Shown here in pieces: positions 1-55,747 of a DNA stretch of 64,000 bases. The notes beneath the pieces were generated by a model. That model was not told where the DNA came from and did not search any database. It saw nothing but the letters and a program-made list of their open reading frames with translations. The first letter of the stretch is position 1; each line of letters opens with the position of its first letter. The DNA is taken from contig NZ_JABXKH010000043.1 in the NCBI RefSeq assembly GCF_017115105.1, forward strand, positions 1 through 64,000, read 5' to 3'. The translations under genes and the position numbers were made by a program. The DNA is from Nostoc sp. NMS2 (GTDB lineage: Bacteria; Cyanobacteriota; Cyanobacteriia; Cyanobacteriales; Nostocaceae).

Positions 1-101
1 CCCTGTAACCACTTCCGTCAACCCTGTAACCACTTCCGTCAACCCTGTAACCACTCACGTCAACCCTGTAACCACTTCCGTCAACCCTGTAACCACTTCT
101 G
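1..101. repeat. 21-bp tandem array 1 (about 5 units)
   Basis: Five consecutive 21-bp units begin CCCTGTAACCACTTCC, at 1, 22, 43, 64 and 85. The third differs at a few bases and the last is partial. The array is cut by the window edge and probably continues upstream. It is followed by a short tail ending AAGAGCGATCGC, which recurs after array 2. The unit resembles the B units of array 2. Confidence 0.95.
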
Positions 102-470
102 GGAAAATGGTGTTAAAGAGCGATCGCTGTTTTCAGAGATTGCATTGCTGGCAATGAGTTTTTATAATTAAGCGATCGCACTAAACAAAGACGAACTCTG
201 AAATAGCTTTTGCAAACTCTAAAGTAGCTTTTGCGAACTCTAAAATAGCTTTTGCGAACCCTGAAGCAACTTCCGCGAACTCTAAAATAGCTTTTGCGAA
301 CCCTGAAGCAACTTCCGCGAACTCTAAAATAGCTTTTGCGAACCCTGAAGCAACTTCCGCGAACTCTAAAATAGCTTTTGTGAACCCTAAAGTAACTTCT
401 GCAAACCCTGAAGCAATTTCCGTCAACTCTGCATCTAATTTTCAAAAATGGTATCAAAGAGCGATACCTG
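102..470. repeat. Composite dispersed element, copy A, with nested array 2
   Basis: The left part (about 112-203) and right part (about 424-470) match a continuous element at 1182-1310. Here they are split by eleven 21-bp units. Shared landmarks are CAATGAGTTTTTATAATTAA, a HIP1 site, ACAAAGACGAAC, then GCATCTA and a tail close to AATGGTGTTAAAGAGCGAT. No gene is recognised; long open frames on either strand exist only because the repeat unit is a multiple of three. Confidence 0.85.
193..423. repeat. 21-bp tandem array 2, eleven units, partly alternating A/B
   Basis: Eleven units in exact 21-bp register start at 193, 214, 235, 256, 277, 298, 319, 340, 361, 382 and 403. From 235 to 381 they alternate between an A form (AACTCTAAAATAGCTTTT) and a B form (AACCCTGAAGCAACTTCC), giving a 42-bp higher-order period. 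The reverse complement of the A form resembles the unit of array 3 at 35 kb. Confidence 0.95.
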
Positions 471-583
471 GATTGGGCTACGCCAACGCTTGACTCTGAA
501 ATTCATTGTTAGGATGTCTTGATACAATTAGTTTGTGGTAACAAGCTTCATTAAATTTTGATGTCATCCCCAATATATTTACT

Positions 584-1162
584 ATGACAGCGATCGCCAT
601 CAACTTAAACCCCATCATCCAACTCACCGACAATCAATTTTATCAGTTGTGTCGTGAAAACCCTGAAATCAAATTTGAACGCAATGCAAGGGGAGAACTT
701 CTAATCATGCCACCCACAGGCGGAGAGACTGGAAATCGTAATTTTGAAATTTCTGTTGAGTTTGGAATTTGGAATCGTCAAACTCAACTAGGAATTTGCT
801 TCGATTCTTCCACTTGCTTTAAATTGCCTAATGGTGCAAACCGTTCTCCTGATGTCGCTTGGATTAGAAAAGAACGATGGGATACACTTACACCTGAAGA
901 GCAAGAAAAGTTTCCACATATTGCACCAGACTTCGTTTTAGAGTTAATGTCACCCAGCGATACTTTGAAAGAAACCCAAGAGAAAATGCAGGAATATATC
1001 GATAACGGGGTTAAATTAGGTTGGTTAATTAATTCAAAATTACGTCAGGTAGAAATCTACCGTCTTGGTCAACCAGTGGAAATATTAGAACATCCAAAAG
1101 AATTATTAGGTGAAGATATTTTACCAGGATTTACTTTAAATTTAGCAATAATCTGGAGATAA
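584..1162 (+). CDS. Uma2-family PD-(D/E)XK-like protein (paralogue 1)
   Basis: This 192-residue protein is of the Uma2 (DUF820) type, a large cyanobacterial family with a predicted PD-(D/E)XK nuclease fold. Biological roles are mostly unknown. Visible signatures are MPPTGGETGNRN near residue 42, the acidic SPDVAWI near 88, FVLELMSP near 118 and the C-terminal GWLI...QVEIYR region. The start ATG has no strong ribosome site. It is same-length and about 85% identical (roughly 29 differences by eye) to the gene at 3754-4332. It lies between the 21-bp arrays and the xisHI pair. Confidence 0.88.
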   Translation: MTAIAINLNPIIQLTDNQFYQLCRENPEIKFERNARGELLIMPPTGGETGNRNFEISVEFGIWNRQTQLGICFDSSTCFKLPNGANRSPDVAWIRKERWDTLTPEEQEKFPHIAPDFVLELMSPSDTLKETQEKMQEYIDNGVKLGWLINSKLRQVEIYRLGQPVEILEHPKELLGEDILPGFTLNLAIIWR

Positions 1163-1181
1163 ATATTAATTTATGACAGCA

Positions 1182-1310
1182 TCAAAAAGCGATCGCAACA
1201 CTCAAAGATTGCTTTGCTGACAATGAGTTTTTATAATTAAGCGATCGCACCAAACAAAGACGAACCCTGCATCTAGTCTGAAAAAATGGTGTTCAAGAGC
1301 GATCGCACTT
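1182..1310. repeat. Composite dispersed element, copy B, without array
   Basis: This is a second copy of the 102-470 element. It has the same CAATGAGTTTTTATAATTAA core, HIP1 site, ACAAAGACGAAC, GCATCTA and AATGGTGTTCAAGAGCGAT tail, but no tandem array between them. It is the natural empty-site comparison for array 2 and fills most of the space between the Uma2 gene and xisH. Confidence 0.85.
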
Positions 1311-1427
1311 TGATGACATTCATAGCTAAGTGATTTTCAAAGAATGAATTATCACAAATATAACCGCCCTTAGTACAATTATATTAACTAGCCCTCATAG
1401 CTACTTTCTCTATATATCACGGAGAAA

Positions 1428-1844
1428 ATGCCAGCAAAAGATGTATACCATGATGCGGTTAAAAATGCCTTAATTAAGGATGGTTGGATAATTACAGCCG
1501 ATCCTTATCCGATTAAATATGAAGAAGTTAAACTGTTTGCCGATCTTGCTGGTGAAAAAACCATTGCCGCTAGTAGAGAAGGAAAACAAATTGTTATTGA
1601 AATTAAAAGTTTTCTGAGTCGCTCTCCTATGCGTGATTTGGAAACCACATTAGGTCAGTATCTAATTTATAAAGCTTTCCTTTCTCTGGAATATCCTGAA
1701 AAGCAATTATATTTAGCAATAGGTGAAATAATTTATGAGGATTTCTTTCAAAAAGTTGCAATTAAATTTATTTTGGAAAAGTATCAAGTCTCACTATTGG
1801 TTGTTGATATGAATAAACAGGAGATTGTGAAATGGATAATTTAA
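1428..1844 (+). CDS. xisH: XisH-family protein (fdxN element excision controlling factor)
   Basis: This 138-residue protein has the typical opening MPAKDVYHDAVKNALIKDGW. XisH was named for controlling excision of the fdxN DNA element in Anabaena heterocysts, together with XisI and the recombinase XisF. Many paralogues exist in cyanobacteria without known function. The sequence has a PD-(D/E)XK-like core: FADLAGE near 37-43 and VIEIKSF near 55-61, suggesting a nuclease fold. A GGAG site lies just before the ATG. The gene overlaps xisI by 13 bp, so the two are surely co-translated. No xisF or fdxN-element gene is visible here. Confidence 0.92.
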   Translation: MPAKDVYHDAVKNALIKDGWIITADPYPIKYEEVKLFADLAGEKTIAASREGKQIVIEIKSFLSRSPMRDLETTLGQYLIYKAFLSLEYPEKQLYLAIGEIIYEDFFQKVAIKFILEKYQVSLLVVDMNKQEIVKWII

Positions 1845-2173
1845 CTCAATATCAAAATACGATCAAGCAAATATTAACAGAGTATCAAAAAATATCTTCG
1901 CAAGTTACTGTTGTTGATATAGATGAAGTGTTAATGTTTGATGATGAGAGAAGTCAATATTTGTGGTTCAATATTGGTTGGAAACAAGGGAAAAGAGTTA
2001 AAGGAATTTCTGTCTATATTCGCATCAAAAATGAAAGAATTTACATTGAAGAAGATTTGACTGAAGAAGGAATGGCAATCGAGTTAATGCGTTTAGGTGT
2101 TCCTCCTAGTGATATTGTCTTGGCTTTTCAGCCTCCAGAAGTGCGGAAATATACTGAGTTTGCAACAGTTTAA
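1832..2173 (+). CDS. xisI: XisI-family protein
   Basis: This 113-residue protein matches the XisI family, the invariable partner of XisH. The recognisable stretches are the opening MDNLTQYQNTIKQILTEY, the middle DDERSQYLWFNIGW, and the C-terminal PPSDIVLAFQPPEVRKYTEF. It starts inside the 3' end of xisH, which implies translational coupling and probably a protein complex. The molecular function is not established for the family. The tight pairing of a PD-(D/E)XK-like protein with a small acidic partner resembles toxin/antitoxin architecture, but that is inference. Confidence 0.92.
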   Translation: MDNLTQYQNTIKQILTEYQKISSQVTVVDIDEVLMFDDERSQYLWFNIGWKQGKRVKGISVYIRIKNERIYIEEDLTEEGMAIELMRLGVPPSDIVLAFQPPEVRKYTEFATV

Positions 2174-2239
2174 AGATTATTTTCTCTGGTAATTATTACG
2201 TTGGTAGTCGCTACTAGCACGCCTGAAAGCAGCTTATTA

Positions 2240-2282
2240 GAGCATCTAATCTGAAAAAATGTCATCAAAGAGCGATATCTAG
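2240..2282. repeat. Composite dispersed element, copy C (tail only)
   Basis: A short piece carries GCATCTAATCTGAAAAAATG and a CATCAAAGAGCGATATC tail, the same right-hand end as copies A and B. It lies just downstream of xisI in a 180-bp gap with no gene. Confidence 0.7.
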
Positions 2283-2353
2283 AAAAATATCGAGAAATTC
2301 CAGACGCGATAAAAAGATTAATGGAGAAGAGTTAAAAACAACCTTCACACACC

Positions 2354-2593
2354 CTACCAATCCTTCTCTATAGCGATATCTTGTTCAGTCAAGTAGGAAA
2401 ATTCCAGTCCCATCAAATCTAATATTTCAATAAATACATCACGCTCCATTTCCATGAGTTCTGCGGCTTTTTTCAAACTAATAACTCTCGAAAATAATGC
2501 CCCTATCACAAACAAAAATGTTTCTTTTTGCTCAATATTATTAAATAATGGGATTTCTGAGGCAACACTTCTTAATTCTTCTTTACTAGTCAT
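2354..2593 (-). CDS. UPF0175-family small protein
   Basis: This 79-residue protein ends in the arrangement usual for UPF0175: KKAAELMEMERDVFIEILDLMG followed by a short tail. The family is a predicted small DNA-binding, antitoxin-like group in cyanobacteria and archaea. The region ISLKKAAELMEMERDVF can be read as helix-turn-helix. It is often paired with a PIN-domain or DUF3368 toxin gene. Here the gene downstream (lower coordinates) is xisI on the opposite strand, so no toxin partner is adjacent. It sits 50 bp downstream of the DUF6745-like gene and could share its transcript. Confidence 0.75.
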   Translation of the reverse strand: MTSKEELRSVASEIPLFNNIEQKETFLFVIGALFSRVISLKKAAELMEMERDVFIEILDLMGLEFSYLTEQDIAIEKDW

Positions 2594-2643
2594 AGGTATT
2601 TTAAGCTAACAGATGTTAAACAGCTTATTCTCACTCATGATTC

Positions 2644-3636
2644 CTAAGTTTTGCCTTGGTTTACCCAGCGTACCGCCTCAATAGCAGAGGCAAACCGCAT
2701 AGACACTCTAGAAACGCGCACTTCCCCTGTATTGGGATTTGTCGCTTTAAGGAACTGCATAGGCTGGACATTAATTCGCTCTCTAACGATACGTAATAAC
2801 TTGTATTCTTCCCAGGAGTCGATTTCGACTGTTTTCATTTTTTCTAATAAGTTTACCCAGCCGATATCATTTAGTTTATGCGTGCGTTCTAGCTTTAGTT
2901 TCCCGTGGTGTGCATACAAGTTATATCCATCTGCAAAGGCTATAGCAGGTGTATCTTCGGCGTGGAGATGGTTGTTGCTATCAATACTGATTGTGGTCGA
3001 ATGCTTGGAGATAATAGCGATATTCTGAAAAAAGAAAGTCCAGCCGCAATTCTTAACAAAATCTTCTAAAATTAATATTTTGTTTTGAAATTGCTGGTAG
3101 TTTAAACCATGAATACAAAAATCAAAATAACTGCATCCTGCGATTAAAGCTTCAGGTTTTCGACACGAAGAGAAGATATTTTTAATAAAGTTGCGATCTC
3201 GCTTACTAAAGTGTTTTTCAAAAACATCTTCCCACTGTATTTCCATCTGCTTTTGCAGTAAATTGGCATACTCTTTTGCCAGATGATTCTCAAACAAAGA
3301 ATGTAAATTTGTTTGTAAATCACCAGGTAGTCGCACGAGCAAATCTGATTGCAAATTACTGTAGATTCTGCTCCAATAGAAACTATCTATGGCATCACCC
3401 AGGACTGTGTAGGAATTAACTTTGAACAAATTCCAGATGTACTCGAACGCAGCATTAGGGCTATCAACGATAATTATTTCAGGTTCCGTGAGTTCGAGTG
3501 CAGTATATATTGCTCGAACTGCATCCATAGCATATTGTTGGTTGATGCCTTCCGTGGATAGTCCAATGTCTTGCCATTTTTCTCGATATCGGGGTATGAA
3601 TGCACGTTGTTCTGGTGTCAGATAGTCGGCGGACAT
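2644..3636 (-). CDS. DUF6745-like protein of unknown function
   Basis: This 330-residue soluble protein opens MSADYLTPEQRAFIPRYREK. It resembles, from memory, the DUF6745 proteins repeated in many cyanobacterial and myxobacterial genomes: an N-terminal P-Y/R-REKW helix, IIVDSPNAAFEY near residue 58, then GYNLYAHHGK and a C-terminal LLRIVRERINVQPMQFLKATNPNTGEV segment with conserved basic residues. No signal peptide, membrane segment or nucleotide-binding motif is visible. The tail PNTGEVRVSRVSMR looks like a beta hairpin. Function unknown; family assignment moderate. Confidence 0.7.
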   Translation of the reverse strand: MSADYLTPEQRAFIPRYREKWQDIGLSTEGINQQYAMDAVRAIYTALELTEPEIIIVDSPNAAFEYIWNLFKVNSYTVLGDAIDSFYWSRIYSNLQSDLLVRLPGDLQTNLHSLFENHLAKEYANLLQKQMEIQWEDVFEKHFSKRDRNFIKNIFSSCRKPEALIAGCSYFDFCIHGLNYQQFQNKILILEDFVKNCGWTFFFQNIAIISKHSTTISIDSNNHLHAEDTPAIAFADGYNLYAHHGKLKLERTHKLNDIGWVNLLEKMKTVEIDSWEEYKLLRIVRERINVQPMQFLKATNPNTGEVRVSRVSMRFASAIEAVRWVNQGKT

Positions 3637-3753
3637 AGCAGGTATGCGATACAGTGGCTATTTTGTATTAAAGCAGGTTATTTGACATGGTTAGTAGAAT
3701 TTAAGAAAAAGCTACTCTACTGGTTTAAAAATGCCATCTTCTAGATAATCCCC

Positions 3754-4332: not shown

Positions 4333-4336
4333 ATAT

Positions 4337-8806: not shown

Positions 8807-8811
8807 GGGCT

Positions 8812-32367: not shown

Positions 32368-33378
32368 ATGGCAAAAAATTGGGCGATCGCGATCGGAATT
32401 AACCAGTATGATTATCTGCAACCGCTAAACTATGCCAAGCGGGATGCACTGTTAATGCAAGAGTTTCTGAGCCATGAAGCCGGATTTGAGCGGATATTCT
32501 TCTTCTCGGATGACTCCCCTGAACTTGCTGGAAAATCGACTCGCCCAACTCGCACTAACTTGCTGCGAGTCTTGCGACAGTTATTTGACAATCCTTTTAT
32601 GGGAGCAGGGGATAATTTCTGGTTTTTCTTCAGTGGTCATGGGATAAGATACGCTGACCGTGATTATCTCATGCCCTGTGATGGCGATCCAGAGGATATT
32701 GAAAACACGGCAATTGCGATTAACTTTATCACTGAACGTCTGCGTCGCTGCGGTGCTGATAACGTTGTCTTGATTCTGGATGCTTGTCGCAATGAAGGTA
32801 AAAAAATAGGTGAAGGAATTGGGCGACAGACCGCAGAAGAAGCACGGCAACAAGGAGTTATCAGCTTTTTTTCTTGTATTCCCCAAGAGTTTTCTTATGA
32901 AATTGAAGCTTTACAACAAGGTGCTTTTACCACTGCGTTACTAGAAGGGTTAGGAATTCAAGGTCGATGCGCTACTGTTGAACGCTTGGAGCAATATCTC
33001 AGATTTCGTGTGCCTGAACTGGTTCGCCAGCATAAGAATACAAGGCAAACGCCTTATGTGATTGCTGAACCTGTGAATAAATCCCACTTAATACTTGTGC
33101 CACGATATGCAACTTTAGCGGATATCGCTACGTTGAAAAATGATGCTTATCGCGCTCAGAGTAAGAGAGACTTTGATTTAGCAAAACAACTCTGGATTAG
33201 GGTACTAGCTGCTGCATCAGGTCAAGATATGGAAGCTATAGAAGCCTTGGAAGAAATTGCTCGGTTGCGAAATAGTTCTGCAATTCCTGATTTACCTCAG
33301 CAAACAATTCCACAAGCATCTAAGTCAGTCACAAATACACCTATAAGTAAACCTCCTCAAATTCCAACTCCCAAGTAG
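32368..33378 (+). CDS. Caspase-family (C14, metacaspase-like) peptidase
   Basis: This 336-residue cysteine peptidase has a caspase p20-like fold: AIAIGINQYDYLQPLNYAKR near 6-25, catalytic His91 in FFFSGHGIRYADRDYLMPCD, and catalytic Cys140 in VVLILDACRNEG. The SFFSCIPQEFSYE strand near 167 shapes the substrate pocket, and GAFTTALLEGL follows. Both catalytic residues are intact. Residues 250-305 form a helical TPR-like hairpin (RDFDLAKQLWIRVLAAASGQ) before a Pro/Ser-rich tail. Prokaryotic caspases act in signalling or regulated cell death. It has a 1-bp gap to the Pepco-like gene and is followed by RAYT-associated palindromes. Confidence 0.9.
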   Translation: MAKNWAIAIGINQYDYLQPLNYAKRDALLMQEFLSHEAGFERIFFFSDDSPELAGKSTRPTRTNLLRVLRQLFDNPFMGAGDNFWFFFSGHGIRYADRDYLMPCDGDPEDIENTAIAINFITERLRRCGADNVVLILDACRNEGKKIGEGIGRQTAEEARQQGVISFFSCIPQEFSYEIEALQQGAFTTALLEGLGIQGRCATVERLEQYLRFRVPELVRQHKNTRQTPYVIAEPVNKSHLILVPRYATLADIATLKNDAYRAQSKRDFDLAKQLWIRVLAAASGQDMEAIEALEEIARLRNSSAIPDLPQQTIPQASKSVTNTPISKPPQIPTPK

Positions 33379-33495
33379 GTTGGGTTGAGGAACAAAACCC
33401 AACATTACCCATCTACCTAACGCTGATGTTGGGTTTCACTTCGTTTAACCCAACCTACAATTTAGGTGATACCTACTCTTTAGCGATATCAGTAA
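33377..33495. repeat. REP nested palindrome, copy 1
   Basis: The outer arms GTAGGTTGGGTT/AACCCAACCTAC and inner arms AAACCCAACAT/ATGTTGGGTTT nest, and AATTTAGGTGATACCTACTC and the last six codons plus stop of the RAYT gene follow. It begins at the caspase stop codon. An almost exact copy lies at 33509-33626. Confidence 0.92.
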
Positions 33496-33508
33496 TTCGT
33501 AGTAATTC

Positions 33509-33626
33509 GTAGGTTGGGTTGAAGAACGAAACCCAACATTACCCATCTACCTAACGCTGATGTTGGGTTTCACTTCGTTTAACCCAACCTACAATTTAGG
33601 TGATACCTACTCTTTAGCGATATCAG
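33509..33626. repeat. REP nested palindrome, copy 2 (runs into RAYT 3' end)
   Basis: This is nearly identical to 33377-33495, separated from it by a short GTAATTC-type spacer. Its right end is the real 3' end of the RAYT gene (stop at 33607). The upstream copy therefore arose by tandem duplication that included the gene's last codons. A shorter diverged piece (AACCCAACCTACGATTAA) lies at about 34300 on the other side of the RAYT. Confidence 0.92.
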
Positions 33627-34149
33627 AGTCAAATACAATTGCTTGCCCAGCCCCCCACGTAATATCATACATACCCTGACGAACAGAACGGTGAAAACTG
33701 GAATATTCCCAATCTTTTGGAGCTTTCACTAAACCATGTTTGACAGGATTGTAGTGAATATATTCAAGGTGATTTTTAAAATCTACCTCGTCTCTAATCA
33801 AGTGTTCCCAAAAACGACGCTGCCAAATACCTCGCTCTTTTTTATTTTGCCTAGAGGTAGATAAGTTTTCCTGTGATAAAGTAATGCACTGGCGACTAAA
33901 ATAACTTTTGATCAAACGCCAACGAGTAGAAAAATTGCGATCGCCCTGTAGTAATGTCCAAATACAGTGCAGATGATCTGGTAATAAAACAAAGGCATCA
34001 ATTATGAATGGGTGTTGTTGCATTACATACCAAAAAATATTTCTTAATAAAGATACGTTAGTAGGTAAGCATAATAGTCTTTGTCTTTTATATGTTACGA
34101 GTGTAAAAAAGTAAGTGCCACCTTCGATTGTGGCTCGGCGATATTGCAT
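33607..34149 (-). CDS. REP-associated tyrosine transposase (RAYT, TnpA-REP)
   Basis: This 180-residue HUH/Y1 transposase-like protein starts MQYRRATIEGGTYFFTLVTY. It has the metal-binding HxH in LLPDHLHCIWTL near 57-68 and the catalytic Tyr region LEYIHYNPVKHGLV near 131-144. RAYTs bind and process palindromic REP sequences. Here REP palindromes flank both ends (33377-33626 and about 34283-34316), as expected for a RAYT locus. The gene appears intact. Its final residues SDIAKE are encoded by repeat DNA that is duplicated next door. Confidence 0.93.
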   Translation of the reverse strand: MQYRRATIEGGTYFFTLVTYKRQRLLCLPTNVSLLRNIFWYVMQQHPFIIDAFVLLPDHLHCIWTLLQGDRNFSTRWRLIKSYFSRQCITLSQENLSTSRQNKKERGIWQRRFWEHLIRDEVDFKNHLEYIHYNPVKHGLVKAPKDWEYSSFHRSVRQGMYDITWGAGQAIVFDSDIAKE

Positions 34150-34860: not shown

Positions 34861-35057
34861 ATAGTTTTCCTGTTTGGATTAATTTATAAATAACCCTGAC
34901 TTATACACTGAGTTATTTATATATCATCAGAATACGCAATAGGCAGATGCAGCAGCCACAGTGAAGTTACAGAATTATAAAAGCATTGGATGGCATTAGC
35001 CAACTAGATAGATGCGGGTATATTTGCTGAAATTTGTTGAGAAAAGCAGTTTTTGAA

Positions 35058-35225
35058 GTCACAAAAGCTAGTTTTAAAGTCACAAAAGCAGGTTTTGAAG
35101 TCACAAAAGCTAGTTTTAAAGTCACAAAAGCTAGTTTTAAAGTCGCAAAAGCTAGTTTTAAAGTCACAAAAGCTAGTTTTAAAGTCGCAAAAGCTGGTTT
35201 TAAAGTCGCAAAAGCTGGTTTTGAA
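35058..35225. repeat. 21-bp tandem array 3, eight units
   Basis: Eight exact 21-bp units built on GTCACAAAAGCTAGTTTTAA start at 35058 and repeat every 21 bp to 35225. A degenerate unit precedes them. Variation is limited to CACA/CGCA, CTAG/CTGG/CAGG and TTTAA/TTGAA. The unit is related, in inverse orientation, to the A units of array 2 (about 16 of 21 bases). Open frames with repeating SFKVTKA heptapeptides exist only because 21 is divisible by 3. Confidence 0.95.
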
Positions 35226-35238
35226 GTCGGGGAGCTTT

Positions 35239-46199: not shown

Positions 46200-46447
46200 G
46201 TTCGATGAACCTCTCCCTCCCAGCCTCCCTCTCCGAAACGGAAAGGGAGGAGCAACGAAAAATTAATTCAGCTTTTTTTTACTCCCCTCTCCGCGTCGGA
46301 GAGGGGCTGGGGGAGAGGTCAAATAAGACTTGTCGAACTCACGTTACTTTGCATCCAAAGTCCTGAGTAACTTATTTTGACTCTTGACAAATGACAAATG
46401 ACCAATACTTCGGCTTCGCTCAGTACAAGTGACTAGTGACAAATAAT
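46200..46447. repeat. Intergenic palindromes, heptamers and small dispersed repeat before nadE
   Basis: Facing tracts (CCTCTCCCTCCCAGCCTCCC; CTCCGCGTCGGAGAGGGGCT) can fold into a long hairpin near 46204-46320. They are followed by TGACAAA heptamers and the 29-bp dispersed repeat at 46403-46431. The hairpin lies inside the operon and could reduce downstream expression. Confidence 0.75.
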
Positions 46448-48166
46448 ATGAAAATTGCGATCGCTCAAATTAATCCGACAATTGGTGATTTGCTTTTAAA
46501 TGCCCAAAAAATTCTAGAGGCGGCACAACGCGCAGCATCTAGCGGTGCGCGTTTGTTGCTAACACCAGAACTTTCTTTATGTGGCTATCCACCACGAGAT
46601 TTATTACTAAATCCTAGTTTTGTGGAAGCGATGGACATCACTTTACAAAATTTGGCTCAAGATTTACCACCAAATTTAGCTGTGTTGGTAGGAACTGTTG
46701 AACCGAACCTCAATGCACATATTAGTGGCGGTAAAACTTTATTTAACAGTATGGCTTTGTTAGAGAATGGCAAGGTACAGCAAGTTTTTTACAAGCGACT
46801 TTTGCCTACTTACGATGTATTTGACGAACGTCGCTATTTTGAGCCAGGCTTGCAAGCTAATTATTTCACTCTAGATGATATCCATATTGGCGTAACTATT
46901 TGCGAAGATTTATGGAACGATGAGGATTTTTGGGGCAAACGGAGTTACGCAGTCAATCCGATTGCTGACTTAGCAATTCTGGGTGTAGATTTGATTGTCA
47001 ATTTGTCTGCTTCGCCCTACACAGTCGGCAAGCAACAGTTTAGAGAAACAATGCTCAGACATAGTGCAGTGCGTTTTCAACAACCGATTATTTACGCTAA
47101 TCAGGTTGGTGGAAATGACGATCTAATTTTTGATGGTCATAGTTTTGCCTTGAATCGTCAAGGTGAAGTTATATGTCGCGCCCGTGGCTTTGATACCGAT
47201 TTAATGGTAGTTGAATTTGACGAGGTACAACGCGATTTACTATTGGGTTCTGTAGCACCTGCCTATCAATCAGAAGATGAGGAGATTTGGCAAGCTTTAG
47301 TTTTGGGAGTGCAAGATTATGCTCGGAAGTGTCGCTTTTCTAAAGTAGTGTTGGGTTTAAGTGGCGGGATTGACTCGGCAATAGTAGCTGCGATCGCAAC
47401 TGCTGCACTTGGTAAAGAAAATGTCCTTGGTGTTCTCATGCCTTCCCCTTACAGTTCGGAGCATTCCATTAGTGATGCTGTGGCATTAGCCGAAAATTTG
47501 GGGATTAAGACTAATCTTTTACCAATTGGGGAGTTAATGCAAGGCTTCGATCAAACTTTAGGCGATTTGTTTGCGGGTACTGAATTTGGACTGGCTGAAG
47601 AGAATATCCAATCTCGGATTCGGGGTAATTTATTAATGGCGATCGCTAATAAATTTGGCTATCTGCTTTTATCTACAGGTAACAAGTCAGAAATGGCAGT
47701 TGGTTACTGTACTCTCTACGGCGATATGAATGGCGGGTTAGCGGTAATTGCAGATGTTCCTAAAACCCGTGTGTATTCACTTTGTCATTGGTTAAATCGC
47801 AATCAAGAAATCATCCCGCAAAACGTCTTGACCAAAGCACCCAGCGCCGAACTCAAACCAGGCCAAGTGGATCAAGACTCTCTACCGCCTTACGAAATTT
47901 TGGACGATATTTTACAACGCCTGGTTCACAACCACCAATCAGCAGTGCAAATTGTTGCAGCCGGTCACGATGCGGTGATTGTAGACAGAGTAATCCAAAT
48001 GGTAGCGCGGGCTGAATTTAAACGACGACAAGCACCCCCCGGTTTAAAAATCACCGATCGCGCCTTTGGAACCGGTTGGCGAATGCCAATTGCTAGTAAC
48101 TGGGTTGGTGTTAAAAAGGCTTACCAGGCTAAAACCACAGCTACACCTAACCTTAGTTTGTTGTAA
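46448..48166 (+). CDS. nadE: Glutamine-dependent NAD+ synthetase
   Basis: This 572-residue enzyme converts deamido-NAD to NAD with ATP and glutamine. The N-terminal nitrilase-type amidase shows LLLTPELSLCGYPPRDLLLN (Glu), YKRLLPTYDVFDERRYF (Lys) and GVTICEDLWNDEDFWG (Cys). The C-terminal synthetase carries the PP-loop VVLGLSGGIDSAIVAAIATA near 302-321 and LSTGNKSEMAVGYCTLYGDM near 414. I use the ATG at 46448, not the GTG four codons earlier. Its stop overlaps the next ATG. Last enzyme of the NAD operon. Confidence 0.96.
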   Translation: MKIAIAQINPTIGDLLLNAQKILEAAQRAASSGARLLLTPELSLCGYPPRDLLLNPSFVEAMDITLQNLAQDLPPNLAVLVGTVEPNLNAHISGGKTLFNSMALLENGKVQQVFYKRLLPTYDVFDERRYFEPGLQANYFTLDDIHIGVTICEDLWNDEDFWGKRSYAVNPIADLAILGVDLIVNLSASPYTVGKQQFRETMLRHSAVRFQQPIIYANQVGGNDDLIFDGHSFALNRQGEVICRARGFDTDLMVVEFDEVQRDLLLGSVAPAYQSEDEEIWQALVLGVQDYARKCRFSKVVLGLSGGIDSAIVAAIATAALGKENVLGVLMPSPYSSEHSISDAVALAENLGIKTNLLPIGELMQGFDQTLGDLFAGTEFGLAEENIQSRIRGNLLMAIANKFGYLLLSTGNKSEMAVGYCTLYGDMNGGLAVIADVPKTRVYSLCHWLNRNQEIIPQNVLTKAPSAELKPGQVDQDSLPPYEILDDILQRLVHNHQSAVQIVAAGHDAVIVDRVIQMVARAEFKRRQAPPGLKITDRAFGTGWRMPIASNWVGVKKAYQAKTTATPNLSLL

Positions 48167-48459
48167 TGGACAAGATGCTCATCCGCGTTGTTCAGGTGCG
48201 GATAAGCATTATCATTGGGACTAAAGTCTCAAAGAAAATTATGTTAGATGAAGCAAATCTTGAACAACGTTTAGCGACTCTTGAACAAACAGTTGCAGAT
48301 ATCAAACATCGAGTCATTGATGCGCCTACCTATAGTAATTGGCTGGAAACGGTTATTGGCTCAATCTCTGATGAACCAGCATTTTTGGAAGCTTTAGAGT
48401 ATGGTCGGTCATTACGCCACGCTGACGTATTTACAGAAGAGACTGGCGAACAACTGTGA
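48166..48459 (+). CDS. VapB-like antitoxin candidate
   Basis: This 97-residue frame starts overlapping the nadE stop (TAATG). A more typical start is the ATG at 48241, giving 72 residues beginning MLDEANLEQRLATLEQTVAD, a coiled coil followed by WLETVIGSISDEPAFLEALE. It overlaps the downstream PIN gene by 4 bp, as antitoxin genes do. The first 25 codons would be low-complexity (VRISIIIGTKVSKKI). Family otherwise unrecognised. Confidence 0.7.
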   Translation: MDKMLIRVVQVRISIIIGTKVSKKIMLDEANLEQRLATLEQTVADIKHRVIDAPTYSNWLETVIGSISDEPAFLEALEYGRSLRHADVFTEETGEQL

Positions 48460-48884
48460 GATATCTACTGGACACTGACCATATCAGTTTTCTTCAAAGA
48501 CGCTCAGGAACAGAGTTTTTAACATTAGCTGCTCATATTGCCCAGCATCAGGCTACAGATTTTGCTTTTTCTATTGTTAGTTTCCATGAGCAAGTAATTG
48601 GCGCTCATACCTTTATTACTCGTTCCCAAACACCTGGTGATGTCGTTCGGGGATATACTCTGCTAATGGAAATTATTCAGGGGTTTTCGGCAGCACCAAT
48701 TTTACCATTCGATGCTGGAGCAGTAACCATATTTGAAGGGTTACGAGCGCAAAGGGTTCGCATAGCCACGATGGATTTAAGAATAGCTTCGATTGCACTT
48801 TCACGGAGCTTAGTATTATTGACTCGCAACACTAGCGACTTTAGCAAAGTTCCAAACTTGATGACACAGGATTGGACAGTGTAA
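48456..48884 (+). CDS. VapC-like PIN-domain toxin
   Basis: This 142-residue PIN-domain ribonuclease candidate starts at a GTG overlapping the antitoxin stop. The acidic catalytic residues are seen in YLLDTDHISFLQRRS (Asp6/Asp8), FSIVSFHEQVIGA (Glu), RIATMDLRIASIALS (Asp near 109) and LLTRNTSDFSKVPNL near 123. VapC toxins cleave tRNA or rRNA and are neutralised by the upstream protein. The pair sits directly behind nadE and may be co-transcribed with the NAD operon. Confidence 0.85.
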   Translation: MRYLLDTDHISFLQRRSGTEFLTLAAHIAQHQATDFAFSIVSFHEQVIGAHTFITRSQTPGDVVRGYTLLMEIIQGFSAAPILPFDAGAVTIFEGLRAQRVRIATMDLRIASIALSRSLVLLTRNTSDFSKVPNLMTQDWTV

Positions 48885-48937: not shown

Positions 48938-49168
48938 CTTCTGAACTCAAATATTGCACCTTGGAACACGAGTTGTCGAGTTAAAAGAGCGATCGCTTGA
49001 CCTTTAACCCTCGAAATTGCACCTTTTATCCTCGCAGTTGCACCTTTTATCCTCGAAATTGCACTTTTAACCCGCGAAGTTGCACCTTTAACCCTCATCA
49101 TTCTACTTCTGAACTTAAAGCTTGCATCTCAGAACACAAATTATCGAGTTAAAAGGGCGTAGGTCTAG
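48938..49168. repeat. 21-bp array 4 with 168-bp higher-order period
   Basis: Eleven units in 21-bp register occupy 48938-49168. Four consecutive units (49001-49084) are CCTTTAACCCTCGAAATTGC-like. The three units at 48938, 48959 and 48980 recur at 49106, 49127 and 49148, i.e. 168 bp = 8 x 21 later (for example CTTCTGAACTCAAATATTGC against CTTCTGAACTTAAAGCTTGC). The GAGTTAAAAGAGCGATCGC unit resembles the tail of the element at 102-470. Confidence 0.9.
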
Positions 49169-49216: not shown

Positions 49217-49637
49217 TTACTCATCTAAACGCTGTGCGATCGCATTCAGCAATGACTCAAACTCTGATTTGCTGTGAATATCAGGGGTGAGCGTGTTCAT
49301 ATCTTTTAGCAGGTTGGTGAGTTCGGCGATCGTGTTGCGAATCTCGGTGTATTGGTCAATTTCTTCACGAAATCCCTGCAAATTAGCTGCACCAACTTCT
49401 CTCATCCCTTCATCTAATTCTTTAATTTCGTCTTCCCAGGGATTGCAGGTTGGTTAGTTGGACAAATTCCGGTGGCAGACTGCTCAGTTGATTACTGCTG
49501 AGGTCGAGGGATTGCAGGTTGGTGAGTTGGCCAAATTCCGGTGGCAACGTTGTTAAGCCTTTCCTAGAAAGGTCTAATTCTGTCACCTTGTCTCTGACAG
49601 CTTGTTCAATAATTTGCAGCAGTTCTTCGTTAGTCAT
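49217..49637 (-). pseudogene. Remnant of a leucine-rich-repeat protein gene
   Basis: The 5' part (49637 downwards) encodes MTNEELLQIIEQAVRDKVTE, LDLSRKGLTTLPPEFGQLTN and two LRRs of the LQSLDLSSNQLSSLPPEF type, the usual start of cyanobacterial LRR-Roco/COR proteins. After NLQSL the reading frame is broken. A different frame carries NPWEDEIKELDEG and MREVGAANLQGFREEIDQYT to a stop at 49217. Most of the gene (more LRRs, probably a GTPase part) has been deleted. Confidence 0.72.
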
Positions 49638-50171
49638 TTGGGGTTTTACAGAGGCGATGCCTGACGACGAGTTGCTGCTTGGACGCGCAGCAGAGAAATT
49701 GAGCTAATTAATAATGTAACGCCGTGTGCAACTTTCTCTCAGACCTAACCCCCAGCCCCTTCCCTACAAGGGAAGGGGAGCAATAATCAAAGCCTCTCTC
49801 CGTTTCGGGGAGAGGAATGGAAGCGGGGTTTTAAGAATAAGTCGCACATCGCGTTAATGTAGCCTGTATGAAGTATTGCATTGAAGCAATGTGCAATATA
49901 GCCGCCAAAGAATATTTTTCACATATTCCAGTACAACTTTATACTCAGAATTTTTATGTATATCTTCTAAATATTACGGAAAAAATTTCATATATATTCC
50001 CAATAAATAGTTTTTTCTTGAGGATCATTTCTGTGAATTTTTGTATGCTAAATCATAAATTAATAGTAAAAATTGTGACATCATCTTCTAGTCAAGAGTA
50101 TAGTTTCAGACAACATCAATTTTTGAAATGATGTTTATACTTAGAAGTAAGTAAATAAAAGCAGGTGCATA
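49638..50171. other. 534-bp gap with a GC-rich inverted element
   Basis: Near 49740-49832 lies a common intergenic element: ACCTAACCCCCAGCCCCTTC, TCCCTACAAGGGAAGGGGAG and CTCTCTCCGTTTCGGGGAGA. Between 49868 and 50131 an AT-rich open frame of 87 codons is unlikely to be real. The rest is AT-rich upstream region of the next gene. Confidence 0.5.
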
Positions 50172-51080: not shown

Positions 51081-51114
51081 GGTAGGATAGCACAGATGTG
51101 CTACCATACTTTGT

Positions 51115-51696: not shown

Positions 51697-52090
51697 GAAT
51701 ACTCATCTCCTTTACTTGTGGTTGTGAGCCATTTTTATCTAACAGAATTCAATACTGTGTAGGTTTTGAGTCGATCCCCCCAACCCCCCTTAAAAAGGGG
51801 GGCTAAGAATGTCTTAATTTTCCCCCTTTTTAAGGGGGATCTCGAATGACTATGCACCAAAACCTACGCAGTATTGGAACAGAATTCAGGAGTCAGGACG
51901 GGCTAAACCCCAGCTATCCGCTAACAGAATTCAGAATACTCCAATCGTGAAAGGATGGAGTTTTAATAATAAAGAATATTTGAATTTTGCCACTTAATCT
52001 TTCATTTCGTGGTATTTGAAATCCTCCAGTAATTGATTCTGAATTCTGACATTCATTTTTATAATATCGATTTTTGCCAAAGGTATATTG
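51697..52090. repeat. 394-bp gap with CCCCCTT inverted repeats and AGAATTC repeats
   Basis: CCCCCCAACCCCCCTTAAAA (51777 on) faces CCCTTTTTAAGGGGGATC (51823-51841), with an internal AAAAGGGGGGCTAAG. This is the central part of the MITE-like element at 56.1 and 61.0 kb. Further on, ACAGAATTCAGGAGTCAGGA and AACAGAATTCAGAATACTCC repeat one another and match 55776-55820. Confidence 0.7.
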
Positions 52091-52942
52091 TCAATGAGCA
52101 TCTTTACGACGCACAAAGGGTAAAAGGTCTTCCAAAATCACCTCGTGGTAATGTTCTTGCGGATAATGTCCAACGTTATTAAGTTTTATTAATTCGGTAT
52201 TTGGTGCTGAATCTGTAAAATTTTGGGCAATGTCTACAGATAACCAAGGGTCAATCATCCCCCATTGAATTAGAATTGGCTGTTGCCATTCTTTAAAACC
52301 AGATTCAATTTCTGTCATTGCTGAATCAAGCTGTAAATTGCGAATACTTGATAACAGACTCCGCCCAGATGAAGAACTTTTCAAAAATGGTTTTCGGTAA
52401 ATATCTAATTCATTATCTCCTATGCGATAACGGCTACCACCTTCTAGCGTTCGGTCAACTAACAAGGGGTCTTGAGTCATTACTTCACCTACCAAAGGTA
52501 AACCCATTTGTTTAATTTTCCAGGGTAATTTGGCAGCAGTTGATATTGGTGTATTTAAAATAGCTAAATTGGCAATTTGTTCTGGATGACGCAAAGCATA
52601 TTGTAGTCCTACAGAACCTAAAAAGCCTTGGACAACTAAAGAAAAATGGTCAAGTTCTAGAGCTTTGACAAATCCTTCTAAAGCTGTGATAAAAGCATCG
52701 GGAGTATAAGCAAAATCTCGTTTTTCTGGTTTTGCAGAAAATCCGTAACCAATCCAATCTGGTGCGATCGCTCTTGTACCTTGATTCGCTAGAGCAGGTA
52801 TAATGTTACGCCAGCTATAACTTTGTGAAACCAAGCCATGTAGCAACAACACAGGCGCTAAGTCAGTTCTGCCGATTGGTAAAGATTCTCGATAAAACCA
52901 TTCCAGTGAATCTACATTGATTTTATGTTCTGTTATTGACAC
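52091..52942 (-). CDS. Alpha/beta-hydrolase-fold protein lacking the nucleophile
   Basis: This 283-residue protein has an alpha/beta-hydrolase fold: oxyanion VLLLHGLVSQSYSWRNIIPA near 32-51, core APDWIGYGFSAKP near 59, catalytic Asp in WGMIDPWLSVDIAQ near 227 and catalytic His in LNNVGHYPQEHYHE near 257. At the nucleophile elbow it reads VVQGFLGSVGLQYALRHPEQ near 101. The usual Ser or Asp (as in VVHDWGG) is Gly, so ordinary hydrolase catalysis is unlikely. As I recall this is shared by a cyanobacterial/plant subgroup; if so it is a conserved pseudo-enzyme. Confidence 0.85.
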   Translation of the reverse strand: MSITEHKINVDSLEWFYRESLPIGRTDLAPVLLLHGLVSQSYSWRNIIPALANQGTRAIAPDWIGYGFSAKPEKRDFAYTPDAFITALEGFVKALELDHFSLVVQGFLGSVGLQYALRHPEQIANLAILNTPISTAAKLPWKIKQMGLPLVGEVMTQDPLLVDRTLEGGSRYRIGDNELDIYRKPFLKSSSSGRSLLSSIRNLQLDSAMTEIESGFKEWQQPILIQWGMIDPWLSVDIAQNFTDSAPNTELIKLNNVGHYPQEHYHEVILEDLLPFVRRKDAH

Positions 52943-53146
52943 GCTATATTCCTAATATTGGGCATTGGGCACTTGTACTGAGCGAAGTCGAAGTATTGGG
53001 AATTGGGCATTGAAAAGAGGCAGAGGGGCGGGGGGCAGGGGGAAAACTCTTCTCCCTTGCTCCCTGCTCCCCATCTCCCTTATCCTCCCCTGCTCCCCCT
53101 GCCTCCCCTGCTCCCTCATCCCCTTCATCTCCCCACTCCCCATTCC
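52943..53146. repeat. Dispersed repeat and heptamer/pyrimidine tracts
   Basis: The 29-bp repeat is present inverted at 52970-52998 (ACTTGTACTGAGCGAAGTCG), followed by TTGGGAATTGGGCATTG heptamers. A long pyrimidine tract (CTCCCTGCTCCCCATCTCCC style) runs to the next gene. No gene is seen. Confidence 0.85.
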
Positions 53147-54241
53147 CTAAGAAATAATCATCTCACGAATCGCATAAGCTGTAGCGGGTGCTAGTAAAAC
53201 GCCGTTGCGATAATGTCCGGTAGCTAGGAGGATGTTACTAAACCCTGGCAACTTACCAATCACTGGGGCAGGACGACCTTCAGGACGGGGACGTAAACCC
53301 GACCAAGTGCGGATAATTTTTGCTGTGGCTAATTCTGGGCAAAATGCGATCGCTTGTTCTTTAACAGATTCCAGCAGTTCTTGGTTTGGCGGTATCTCAT
53401 TTCCATTGCTGGGAAATTCCACTGTTGCCCCTACCCAATAATCTCCGCCGCCTATAGGAACAATATGGACATCGTTACCCGTTATCGCTGGCTGGAAGTC
53501 GGGATTGCCTAATGGATGCCCTACACGCATTTGCAATGCTTGCCCTAGTACAGGGCGGATGTCAATTATCTGATTTAATTTTGCAGTCAGTGGTGTTGAA
53601 CCTAGTCCTGCTGCAATTACAAACCAATCTGCGGCTATTTTTCCTTCTGTAGTCTCAAGCTGATTGCAAAATTGGGGAGAAGATTCAGATGGTGAGGTTT
53701 GGGCATCCAAAACAGTCACGCCAAATTTGAAAGTTACACCGTTTTGCTGGGCAGCCTCAACTAAAGCTAATGTGAGAGCAGTTGGATCGAGTTGACGATC
53801 TTGGGGAGAATAGACAGCGCCAGTAATTTTTTCGCAATCCACTTGAGGACAGATATTCTGGAGTTTAGCCGTGTCCCATATTTCTAAATGCCAGCCTTGA
53901 GAGTGGCGAATTTCTACAAGTTTTTCCCATGCTGCTAAATTCTCCTCTTCCAAACCCAGACTGAGAATTCCCTGGCGGTTAAAAGGGATTTTGCGACCTG
54001 TTAAAGCTTCTAATTCAGGAATCAAAGTTTCATAGCGTTGGATGCTAATTTGTCGCATCTGCCAAGCTTTGCCCTTAATTTTATGGCTGATTGCGCCCAT
54101 CAAAACGCCAAGTGCAGCGCCCGTGGAAGCTTGTGCTGGTGGTTGGCGATCGCAAACTGTGATTTTTAGCCCTTTTACTTGACTCAGTTCATAAGCGATC
54201 GTAGCCCCAACTACACCACAACCGATAATGACTACATTCAT
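53147..54241 (-). CDS. FAD-dependent oxidoreductase, glycine-oxidase (ThiO)-like
   Basis: This 364-residue DAO-family flavoenzyme has the dinucleotide-binding fold VVIIGCGVVGATIAYELSQV (3-22) and KITVCDRQPPAQASTGAALG near 32. The middle shows SLGLEEENLAAWEKLVEIRH and DRQLDPTALTLALVEAAQQN near 157. The C-terminal signature is RTWSGLRPRPEGRPAPVIGK with NILLATGHYRNGVLLAPATA near 325-355. Substrates are probably small amino acids; in cyanobacteria ThiO supplies the thiazole precursor for thiamin, but no thiG is here. Confidence 0.85.
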   Translation of the reverse strand: MNVVIIGCGVVGATIAYELSQVKGLKITVCDRQPPAQASTGAALGVLMGAISHKIKGKAWQMRQISIQRYETLIPELEALTGRKIPFNRQGILSLGLEEENLAAWEKLVEIRHSQGWHLEIWDTAKLQNICPQVDCEKITGAVYSPQDRQLDPTALTLALVEAAQQNGVTFKFGVTVLDAQTSPSESSPQFCNQLETTEGKIAADWFVIAAGLGSTPLTAKLNQIIDIRPVLGQALQMRVGHPLGNPDFQPAITGNDVHIVPIGGGDYWVGATVEFPSNGNEIPPNQELLESVKEQAIAFCPELATAKIIRTWSGLRPRPEGRPAPVIGKLPGFSNILLATGHYRNGVLLAPATAYAIREMIIS

Positions 54242-54375
54242 GACATGTAATTGAAGTGAGAAGTTAGGAGTTAGGAGTTAAAAACTTAAAATTCCTAACT
54301 CCTGTACAGACACAGATTTTTCGCGTCTCTAACTCCTAACTCTTGTACAGACGCGATTCATCGCGTCTCTAATTA
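54242..54375. repeat. Two AGACGCGAT-type palindromes
   Basis: Tandem related units occur: AACTCCTGTACAGACACAGA then TTTTTCGCGTCTCTAACTCC, followed by ACTCTTGTACAGACGCGATT with CATCGCGTCTCTAATTATTA. The second has stem GACGCGATtcATCGCGTC. Same family as 17517, 35239 and 62457. Confidence 0.85.
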
Positions 54376-54831
54376 TTAACCCTCTTCTTTTTTAGGAAGC
54401 AGATCGAGGAATTTGTCAAGGTCTGTGAAAGCAGCTTTAGATTGACTCAAGGCAACTAGAGGATTGCTAGCACTCGTCGCTTTATCAAGTTTAACCAGGT
54501 CGTTAAACAAATCTCGCGTTATTTGGCGGGCTGCGGATTGGTCTTTGGGTAGAAGGTTAGGAGTGACATAAGTCAAGTTCAGCCTTGCTTCTGTTATGGG
54601 CCCGTGTATAAAGTTACGCACATTGATCCAATCACCTTTTTGGATCAGGGTTTTCAACTCATCTGAGCGATCGCGCACAGCCTGAATTTCAGGAACATAA
54701 GCCTGAATTCTTTCAAGTTGAGTTGCTGTGTAAGTTGGAGGTACTACCGCAACACTAGGGCCGCCACAACTCATGAGGAATGTGGCCAATAATACTAAAA
54801 CAAATGAAAAAATCGAGCGTTGACGCGCCAT
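54376..54831 (-). CDS. psbQ: Photosystem II lipoprotein PsbQ (CyanoQ)
   Basis: This 151-residue lipoprotein starts at the ATG at 54831. Its leader SIFSFVLVLLATFLMSCGG carries a lipobox (LMSC), so the Cys near 23 is lipidated on the lumenal side of the thylakoid. The mature helical bundle has YTATQLERIQAYVPEIQAVR, LIQKGDWINVRNFIHGPITE near 73-92 and a C-terminal AFTDLDKFLDLLP. CyanoQ helps stabilise the oxygen-evolving complex. Gene is monocistronic here. Confidence 0.92.
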   Translation of the reverse strand: MARQRSIFSFVLVLLATFLMSCGGPSVAVVPPTYTATQLERIQAYVPEIQAVRDRSDELKTLIQKGDWINVRNFIHGPITEARLNLTYVTPNLLPKDQSAARQITRDLFNDLVKLDKATSASNPLVALSQSKAAFTDLDKFLDLLPKKEEG

Positions 54832-55196
54832 GACAATGAACTTAATTGCTTTTTGTTTACCGATTAACAGTGTCATTTTAGATCGTCGCTAGCGCAATTT
54901 ATCGTTCTTGTCTGCCAAGGATTTTGCAGACAATCCTGATATTTTTTATAAAGGGCAGAGTTTCATCTGCTTTTGAGGAGTTTTTAAGTACAATTACTTA
55001 ATAGGTGTTAGACAGTCCCAACGAGAGGCTATTTTTCAGATTTGTTAGTAACGAGAATTGTTAGGGAAGTCTGATTTAGAGTTGCTAAATCTCAAAGGTC
55101 TTGATAAGCTGAAACACCAATATATATAAGCCTTCTGGCGGTTTTTCTATCTTCACATCCCCGAAGATGCCGACGCAATTATAGGAGTGTTTTTTA
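54832..55196. other. 365-bp divergent region between psbQ and the next gene
   Basis: This holds the psbQ promoter on the minus side and the 142-residue gene's on the plus side. No gene, palindrome or repeat family was recognised. Its AT-rich parts may contain promoters, but none has consensus-quality boxes. Confidence 0.45.
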
Positions 55197-55625
55197 GTGA
55201 ATGCAGCTGAACAGGCAACGAACTTTGAACTCGCCAGCAACATTGCTACGGTGGTTAATTTGTTCAAATTCGAGTTTCCTGATGCCAAATCTGATCTTAA
55301 ACCCTGGAAAAATGACCCGGAAACCAGGGAGTTAGTCGATCCAGATTCTATAGATATTGGCTTTCACTTTCCTGGTATCAGCAAATCTTGGCGAAGCCGC
55401 AGTATTTTAATTCAAATCCGATTTTATCAAGATCCCATCAATAATTCCCGCCGGGCGATCGGCGTGGAGGTAGCTGGATTCGATCATCGCGGCGAAGCGT
55501 GGCGACTTTCTACGGTAGAAAACTGGAGTGTTGTCGGCGCATCTTCGCCTTCTGGTGAAATCGAGGATAAGCTCAAACAAATTTGTAGACAGATTTTAGA
55601 AGTTTTTAATAAACCAAGTGATTAA
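55197..55625 (+). CDS. Conserved hypothetical protein (142 residues)
   Basis: This soluble 142-residue protein begins with a GTG codon, reading MNAAEQATNFELASNIATVV. It has FKFEFPDAKSDLKPWKNDPE near 24, DSIDIGFHFPGISKSWRSRS near 50, ILIQIRFYQDPINNSRRAIG near 70, and VEVAGFDHRGEAWRLSTVEN with WSVVGASSPSGE. It looks like a single alpha/beta domain with a C-terminal helix. I regard it as a conserved cyanobacterial protein of unknown function. No operon partners. Confidence 0.75.
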   Translation: MNAAEQATNFELASNIATVVNLFKFEFPDAKSDLKPWKNDPETRELVDPDSIDIGFHFPGISKSWRSRSILIQIRFYQDPINNSRRAIGVEVAGFDHRGEAWRLSTVENWSVVGASSPSGEIEDKLKQICRQILEVFNKPSD

Positions 55626-55684
55626 AGGGGACAGGAGAAAACCTCTCAAAATATTTTTATTTCTCTACTTAATGAGCTTCTAAA

Positions 55685-55747
55685 CTCCGTCAACGAGTAT
55701 TTTAGCTCCGTTAACGAGTCTTTGAACTCCGTTAACGAGCCTCACTA
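55685..55747. repeat. 21-bp array 5, three units
   Basis: CTCCGTCAACGAGTATTTTA-type units start at 55685, 55706 and 55727, each 21 bp; a degenerate unit precedes them. The key element CTCCGTTAACGAG recurs exactly in units 2 and 3. The unit is different in sequence but same in length as the other four arrays. Confidence 0.85.

Follow-up and report, generated by a model that had tools for sequence, protein, structure and literature searches.

Tandem arrays of 21-bp units in Nostoc combine constant unit length with variable sequence

The window considered here, namely the whole 64,000-nucleotide stretch analysed from contig NZ_JABXKH010000043.1 of Nostoc sp. NMS2, contains five tandem arrays, all given on the forward strand. 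Array 1 (1–105) has about five units of AACCCTGTAACCACTTCCGTC and is truncated by the contig start; array 2 (193–423) comprises 11 units in an A/B pattern, forming a 42-bp higher-order unit; array 3 (35042–35228) has about nine units of AAAAGCTAGTTTTAAAGTCAC; array 4 (48938–49168) has 11 units in 21-bp register; and array 5 (55662–55745), with three to four units of AACTCCGTTAACGAGTCTTTG, lies between convergent genes. Tandem Repeats Finder (TRF) returns a period of 21 or 42 at 1–99, 192–406, 35042–35228, 49000–49096, and 55683–55739, in agreement with direct reading of the sequence, so that the five arrays stand with essentially the spans and the 21-bp register given to them in an earlier sequence-only reading. 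The word exact, which that reading also used, is true of the spacing and not of the sequence, because the outer units of array 4 differ strongly: its central units (49000–49096) are alike, and the outer stretches (48938–48999 and 49106–49168) keep the 21-bp spacing with very different sequence. Identity in the five arrays is 0.72–0.95 at lag 21 vs 0.18–0.42 at lag 7, and with no 7-bp unit present they are not heptameric STRR; nor do they form a CRISPR array, their units lying head to tail without unique spacers.

Array 4 starts 54 bp past the stop of a small gene (48456–48884) that is without a Pfam match; by eye, its product looks VapC-like. The flank of arrays 1 and 2 has a paralogue at 1184–1306 (forward strand), 87% identical over 86 bp to 115–200 and 82% identical to 83–127, which holds one unit (1263–1283, assigned by eye) and is an unexpanded or contracted copy. 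Fifty-three bp of array 1 recur, 100% identical, at the start of another contig of the set (C165), and 4 of 40 further contigs read from base 1 start within a 21-bp array, though the match is poor in one. The contig of the window likewise starts inside such an array. With genes judged by frame length, the arrays lie between genes, as had been claimed. In coding tests over 46 pooled arrays, repeats encoding heptapeptides are rejected by 3-bp periodicity (Fisher p ~1) and by open frames, 3.89 vs 3.93 in shuffles.

In sequence, the arrays are related only in part. Array 2 matches the inverted array 3 with 72% identity over 166 bp (E = 8.7e-7), and the likenesses noticed from the letters alone are all borne out: array 1 agrees with the B unit of array 2 at 16 of 21 positions, the inverted A unit agrees with array 3 at 15 of 21 (reached by ~0.1% of composition-shuffle pairs), and array 4, through one outer unit, agrees with the A unit at 14 of 21 (at least 14 in ~0.4% of shuffles). 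More generally, 5.5% of unit pairs are identical at 15 or more of 21 positions vs 0.1% in shuffles, and the units fall into four to five groups plus singles, the groups recurring at different loci and one being common to Fischerella (19/21). The 21-bp arrays are thus several unrelated sequence families with one length.

This common length becomes most evident when repeats are sorted by copy number. Our survey of the same genome covered 1.04 Mb, in which frame length, and no gene finder, served to separate genes from other open frames. Among noncoding, non-heptameric arrays with four or more units and a period of at least 15, 17 of 18 have a period of 21 (11 arrays) or a multiple of it (six), and none has 20 or 22; the multiples are credited by length, and those of 126 bp here and of 84 bp in G071, a genome of the same genus, are probably coding. 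Two-copy duplications have many lengths, only 2 of 17 being multiples of 21, and among arrays of 2.5–3.9 copies the fraction is 4/7; the corresponding figures in G071 are 0/7 and 0/2, followed by 7/7 for arrays of at least four units. Since duplications are of many lengths and long arrays nearly all of 21 or a multiple, it is amplification or retention that the rule governs. When intergenic, non-heptameric arrays of at least 2.5 copies are counted in the same 1.04 Mb, period 21 occurs 14 times, 42 three times, and 20, 22, 28, or 35 never; period 9 is found 18 times, and the 17 period-9 arrays of the register scan are short purine-rich runs. Autocorrelation of the noncoding DNA peaks at 7, 14, 21, and 42, the masked version being blurred by residual coding (multiples of 3). 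The expectation that 21 would dominate over its neighbouring periods is therefore sustained, even if the rule is not absolute, given two 20-bp arrays of six and eight copies (loci L092 and L127). Elsewhere in the sample, long frames contain a few arrays of period 21.

Length is also kept while sequence changes. The 21 type (periods 20–22, 42, 63, 84, and 126) is represented by 46 noncoding TRF arrays with 232 units and 377 substitutions, in which the register shifts six times (three at L212, one each at L111, L264, and L109), whereas ~31 shifts would be expected from the 267 indels of 1–3 nt per 3234 substitutions in orthologous noncoding DNA, expected numbers that are upper figures because shared variants are counted repeatedly. 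For 61 arrays of other periods, 12 shifts accompany 133 substitutions, with ~11 predicted, and the TRF indel-to-mismatch ratio is 0.032 for the 21 type, 0.040 for heptamers, and 0.173 for others. When 42 arrays picked by hand were aligned so as to favour gaps, 69 indels were counted vs 74 expected, 44 of the 69 lying in six array-4 loci whose ranges took in diverged outer units; with tighter ranges, a register scan of 42 arrays, likewise picked by hand, gave no shift in 534 substitutions. As this last scan omitted the worst case, L212 14606–14691, the scan of all 46 arrays is the main evidence; the six shifts leave our assessment unchanged, because the deficit against ~31 persists. The 21-bp arrays hence outdo other repeats in keeping their length through many substitutions. 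The earlier proposal that 21 bp is fixed or selected finds support in these rare shifts, in the census spike, and in the unrelated families sharing the length.

Some related species have array 4 at the corresponding position with a different number of copies, and others lack it, one locus being without the array. Copy number thus varies between species, a question that the sequence-only reading had raised for strains. Of 37 loci scanned at the corresponding place, some of them short, nine have a 21-bp-periodic stretch, two of which are not alignable to array 4. As a query, array 4 finds matches in 28 of 145 genomes of the family, belonging to 12 of 56 genera, and in 5 of the 12 genomes reached through the loci. 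A 200-kb sample of Fischerella contains two arrays with four or more units; in samples of 400 kb of G032 and 200 kb of Scytonema duplications are present and arrays of at least four units are absent. The 21-bp arrays are accordingly lineage-specific and only partly conserved between close genomes.

How did such different sequences come to share one length? If the arrays functioned at the RNA level, as hairpins or small RNAs transcribed within 3' UTRs, this would be consistent with the 16 of 30 distances to a 3' gene end that measure 14–98 bp (from 27 arrays picked by hand, 22 of them flanked by genes on either side, under a filter unlike that of the proximity comparison below), with the good stem of some families, with folding energies of 29 units slightly better than shuffles (p = 0.018), and with the reported transcription of the 52-nt satellites of Bacillus coagulans (PMC8625621). 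Yet a universal hairpin per unit, convincing by eye, fails on stems that are no better than those of composition shuffles (Fisher p = 0.68, 29 units; the test concerns stems, and single families may still fold), and with it fails the assignment to SDR or REP-like folded elements. Proximity to 3' ends, moreover, is common to other repeats: it amounts to 0.54 for 21-bp arrays (just 13, as an array could not be scored beneath a long frame or at the end of a stretch), 0.68 for heptamers (n = 112), 0.52 for other tandem repeats (n = 25), and 0.22 for random positions, which speaks against a function specific to gene 3' ends and likely reflects tolerance. Rfam gave no match in the window, and six array-bearing loci of the same genome gave one tRNA only. 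We consider the RNA explanation highly improbable. A match to unrelated known elements, which the sequence-only reading had named as a possible refutation, thus fails for Rfam in the window, although a published repeat class does accommodate the arrays. Common descent from one 21-bp satellite that spread through the genome, its length kept simply by the rarity of indels and by no active rule, would accord with the recurring groups; however, these have diverged to about chance, and indels (332 per 3234 substitutions in orthologous noncoding DNA) would be expected to have altered the length by now, so that we give this account very little credence too.

Two further explanations deserve more weight, though neither is favoured. 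In one, a nucleoid or other DNA-binding protein with a 21-bp footprint would polymerise along the DNA, reading its shape and not its sequence, and selection would keep the arrays that fit. Constant length with variable sequence is in line with such a scaffold, which has been suggested for the class (PMC8161180); predicted bends are also strong, ~28–44 degrees per unit, in families II and III and in 6 of 10 units of superfamily I. Against it, family IV is predicted to be straight, array 4 is not conserved among the 37 loci, and the 11 families have no k-mer of 4–6 in common beyond shuffles, in a test made weaker by pooling families of this genome, G071, and relatives. The predicted bend of the 11 families compared with noncoding DNA gives P = 0.059 on the wedge values used, so predicted curvature is suggestive only. 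We regard the scaffold as unlikely. The other explanation takes the units as fused triplets of the abundant 7-bp repeats (21 = 3 × 7). All 10 superfamily I units have a 7-bp purine power of 2.7–5.7 vs a noncoding mean of 1.15, the TRF indel ratio of heptamer arrays is similarly low, and heptamer arrays show a slight extra likeness at 21 bp in this genome plus G071 (101 vs 56, p = 4e-4) and in Nostoc relatives (62 vs 34, p = 0.006), with none in those of other cyanobacteria (48 vs 57). But the 7-bp test falls short of significance at the level of families (p = 0.21), likeness within heptamer arrays is greater at 14 bp than at 21, and the surveyed DNA has no non-heptameric array of 28 or 35 bp at 2.5 copies or more. 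An internal 7-bp origin for all families is rejected, its trace being confined to superfamily I and an apparent z = 5.7 having stemmed from partly related units; we find the heptamer explanation improbable.

The best mechanism that we can offer, tentatively and somewhat below even chances, is a helical-phase restriction on amplification or retention. Local duplications would arise at any length; stepwise amplification, by unequal exchange or slippage, or later survival would work well only when a shift by one unit equals whole helical turns, as 21 bp (2 × 10.5) would provide. Exchange between side-by-side duplexes, or protein assembly on them, would require units in helical phase; sequence would matter little and units would drift, and indels breaking the phase would halt amplification and be lost. 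The earlier idea that all copies lie on the same face of the helix may hold, being consistent with 21 = 2 × 10.5, but no shared motif was found and the predicted curvature is suggestive only. The phasing of AA/TT at 10.5 bp is stronger than in composition shuffles (z = 3.15), on units that are partly related. A bolder version, which we deem quite unlikely, would restrict efficient amplification or persistence in Nostoc to tandem repeats of which a whole number of units makes up 21 bp, a two-turn ruler acting after the first duplication that would explain the satellites of 21, 42, and 63 bp together with the heptamer excess (3 × 7 = 21). If heptamers did obey a 21-bp rule, an old puzzle would be answered, the excess of heptamers in prokaryote genomes for which PMC6344855 reports no clear clue. 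Nostoc offers a usable test system, with many arrays per genome and varying copy numbers at one place, to which the array-less locus and the one-unit paralogue add; the contrast of two-copy duplications with long arrays locates the step of the length rule and renders a helical-phase rule testable.

With regard to known systems, the arrays of the window very probably belong to the noncoding, satellite-like repeats of constant size and variable sequence of Subirana and Messeguer, described for bacteria with units of 20–21 or 52 nt, the shorter kind being stated for Cyanobacteria and its length remarked upon as two helical turns; these authors saw no obvious function for the class (PMC8161180). 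As in that class, the Nostoc arrays have at least four repeats (array 5 alone having three to four) of a unit fixed at 20–21 nt, several unrelated families in one genome, no protein coding, and a lineage-specific distribution partly conserved between close genomes. They differ in being nearly all of 21 bp, with higher-order units of 42 and 63 bp, and in lacking the short sequence common to a species' repeats, an accompanying and non-defining trait of the class; two-copy duplications, indels, and an array-less locus belong to the Nostoc set and do not appear in the parts of PMC8161180 considered. This kind of repeat is therefore already in print, including its occurrence in Cyanobacteria and the two-turn remark, and what is added here is an indication of the step where the length rule acts; none of the titles or abstract openings retrieved concerned Nostoc 21-bp arrays, and J Bacteriol 2020 e00229-20, by the authors of the class, may treat them. 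Class membership and helical-phase amplification or retention, taken together as the whole explanation, fall just short of an even chance. Cyanobacterial heptameric STRR resemble the arrays in occurring in the same genomes, in intergenic position near 3' ends, and in rigid unit length, but their unit is 7 bp and most 21-bp families are without a clear 7-bp trace. The SDR, small dispersed repeats of Nostoc punctiforme, are reportedly 21–27 nt long, intergenic, and dispersed, some sharing a fold (Elhai, 2008). The arrays would thus be like them in genus, size, and intergenic location, and differ in being tandem and without a universal fold.

The five arrays of 21-bp register that the sequence-only reading had placed in the window were recovered there by both Tandem Repeats Finder (TRF) and direct reading of the sequence. 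They lie at 1-105, 193-423, 35042-35228, 48938-49168 and 55662-55745, and they are real, not an artefact. Array 2 is built of a 42-bp A/B unit; in array 4 the likeness between units is confined to the centre, and the outer ones retain the 21-bp spacing. The window opens contig C156 of the 7.57-Mb, 183-contig genome, and array 1 is truncated by the contig end, with 53 identical bp at the start of contig C165; at 1184-1306 the sequence flanking arrays 1 and 2 recurs around a single unit. Base 1 falls inside a 21-bp array in five contigs of this genome (C156, C165, C100, C155 and, weakly, C161), so short-read assemblies probably under-report such arrays.

The expected excess of period 21 over its neighbours was borne out in a 1.04-Mb sample of this genome, made up of the window and 60 stretches (L007-L066): among intergenic arrays of at least 2.5 copies, with heptamer-like ones (7-bp tandem repeats) set aside, 14 have period 21 and three period 42, versus none with period 20 or 22. 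The commonest period by the same count is 9 (18 arrays), the 17 listed being short purine-rich runs such as GGGAGATGA. A 20-bp array, TAAATCAAGTTTTGRACTTG, which by eye has an inverted repeat inside every unit, is an exception to the 21-bp rule; it occurs at 3128-3251 of locus L092 and 3237-3400 of locus L127, in a comparable position in Desmonostoc and Nostoc calcicola.

When does length begin to matter? We sorted non-heptameric repeats of period at least 15, judged noncoding by open frames, according to copy number, crediting multiples of 21 by length. In the NMS2 genome such multiples make up 2/17 two-copy duplications, 4/7 arrays of 2.5-3.9 copies and 17/18 arrays of at least four units; these 17 have periods of 21 (11 arrays), 42 (four), 63 (one) and 126 (one, probably coding). 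The corresponding fractions are 0/7, 0/2 and 7/7 in G071, a genome of the same genus (one of the seven, an 84-bp array, being probably coding), and 2/6, 0/2 and 2/2 in Fischerella. Two-copy multiples of 21 number 1/14 in G032, a genome of the same family, 1/5 in Scytonema and 1/19 in mixed other cyanobacteria, and the sole array of at least four units in these three samples has period 15. Therefore, duplications of many lengths form everywhere sampled, and in Nostoc it is those of 21 bp that grow, a restriction perhaps shared by Fischerella. Length matters at the step of amplification or retention.

Length is also faithfully kept. In all 46 noncoding TRF arrays of 21 type (periods 20-22, 42, 63, 84 and 126; NMS2 DNA, 80 loci of relatives, G071 and Fischerella, some being orthologues) we counted six register shifts over 232 units and 377 substitutions, three of them in one poor array (L212, 14606-14691), versus about 31 expected from orthologous noncoding DNA, in which 3234 substitutions go with 332 indels; the 267 indels of 1-3 nt set the expected ratio. 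The 61 arrays of other periods show 12 shifts per 133 substitutions versus about 11 predicted. A hand-picked set of 42 arrays that left out L212 14606 had no shifts in 322 units and 534 substitutions, and a gap-friendly alignment, likewise of 42 hand-picked arrays, gave 69 indels (74 expected). Six array-4 loci, in which the outer units have diverged, account for 44 of the 69; the unbiased scan of all 46 is the best of the three estimates. The indel-to-mismatch ratio given by TRF is 0.032 in arrays of the 21 type and 0.040 in heptamers, and reaches 0.173 in arrays of other periods.

Coding repeats would show a 3-bp periodicity of variation, which was absent from 46 hand-listed arrays, where open frames were as in shuffles. 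A hairpin per unit is disfavoured by stems no better than shuffles in 29 consensus units, even if their folding energy is slightly better (p = 0.018). No 4-6-mers were shared beyond chance across 11 families, and no Rfam match reached gathering scores within the window. The arrays lie close to stop codons, as do heptamers and other repeats. Compared with one another, 33 unit consensuses sort into four or five groups, with some left as singles; of the 528 unit pairs, 5.5% match at 15 or more of 21 positions versus 0.1% for shuffles (a few pairs join units of a single array or of two array ends that may belong together), and a Fischerella unit matches an NMS2 unit at 19 of 21. Superfamily I retains a 7-bp purine rhythm and may derive from heptamers; taken together, the 11 families show no significant rhythm of this kind (p = 0.21).

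Helical geometry is the reading we favour for the length rule. With 10.5 bp to a turn, a shift of 21 bp leaves the helical phase intact, and this would favour exchange between side-by-side duplexes or protein assembly on them. As expected under a two-turn rule, heptamer arrays show slight extra likeness at 21 bp in NMS2 plus G071 (101 vs 56) and in Nostoc relatives (62 vs 34), absent outside the Nostoc samples (48 vs 57); the gain in identity is small, about 0.01. Coherent bending is predicted to be strong for families II and III and for 6/10 units of I, and weak for IV (P = 0.059 over 11 families).

The array 4 locus was followed in 80 named loci brought in by NAD synthase (46436-48166). The array occupies the same place with differing unit numbers in L067, L069, L074, L100, L107 and L111; L075 has it too, and L076 carries an 84-bp form. 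Beyond the NAD synthase gene, 9/37 scanned loci (some short) have a 21-bp-periodic stretch and none has one of period 19, 20, 22 or 23; the 21-bp stretches of L079 and L082 do not align to array 4. Synteny breaks at the left edge of the array. The slot before it (48166-48884 in the window) holds, by eye, either a VapBC-like pair of small genes (window, L107 and L111; the second gene without Pfam match) or a different cassette of a small gene and a retropepsin-like gene (L067, 5931-6800; L069, 11728-12530); in L100 it has no frame of 60 codons, and in L068 only 76 bp lead from the NAD synthase match to the post-array sequence. A 69-bp tandem repeat has about one copy at 49438-49718 of the window and about ten or more in L067 (9400-10365), L069 (15093-16192) and L076 (17501-18906); because 69 is a multiple of 3, the repeat is probably coding, with a copy number that varies. 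Elsewhere in the window, a 134-bp tandem duplication (33375-33626) with an apparent inverted repeat by eye adjoins a protein (33607-34149, minus strand) with a weak, below cut-off match to IS200-like transposases (Pfam Y1_Tnp), an arrangement similar to REP/RAYT pairs.

As a kind, the Nostoc arrays are already known. Subirana and Messeguer (2021; PMC8161180), searching with a minimum of four repeats, described tandem repeats whose size is constant (20-21 or 52 nt) while their sequence varies, generally noncoding, with several families per species; the sections of that paper cited here state that the 20-21-nt kind is present in Cyanobacteria (after the authors' 2020 paper), remark that its length equals two helix turns, suggest that a polymerising protein, or else small RNAs, may be involved, and contain no two-copy control, indel comparison or array-free locus comparison that we could find. 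Cyanobacterial genomes are also described as having an 11-bp AT-tract periodicity, intermediate in heterocystous species (PMC4132750). Matching the class of PMC8161180, the Nostoc arrays are thus a case of a known, unexplained kind, to which they add evidence on the step at which length counts, as well as a system well suited to comparison.
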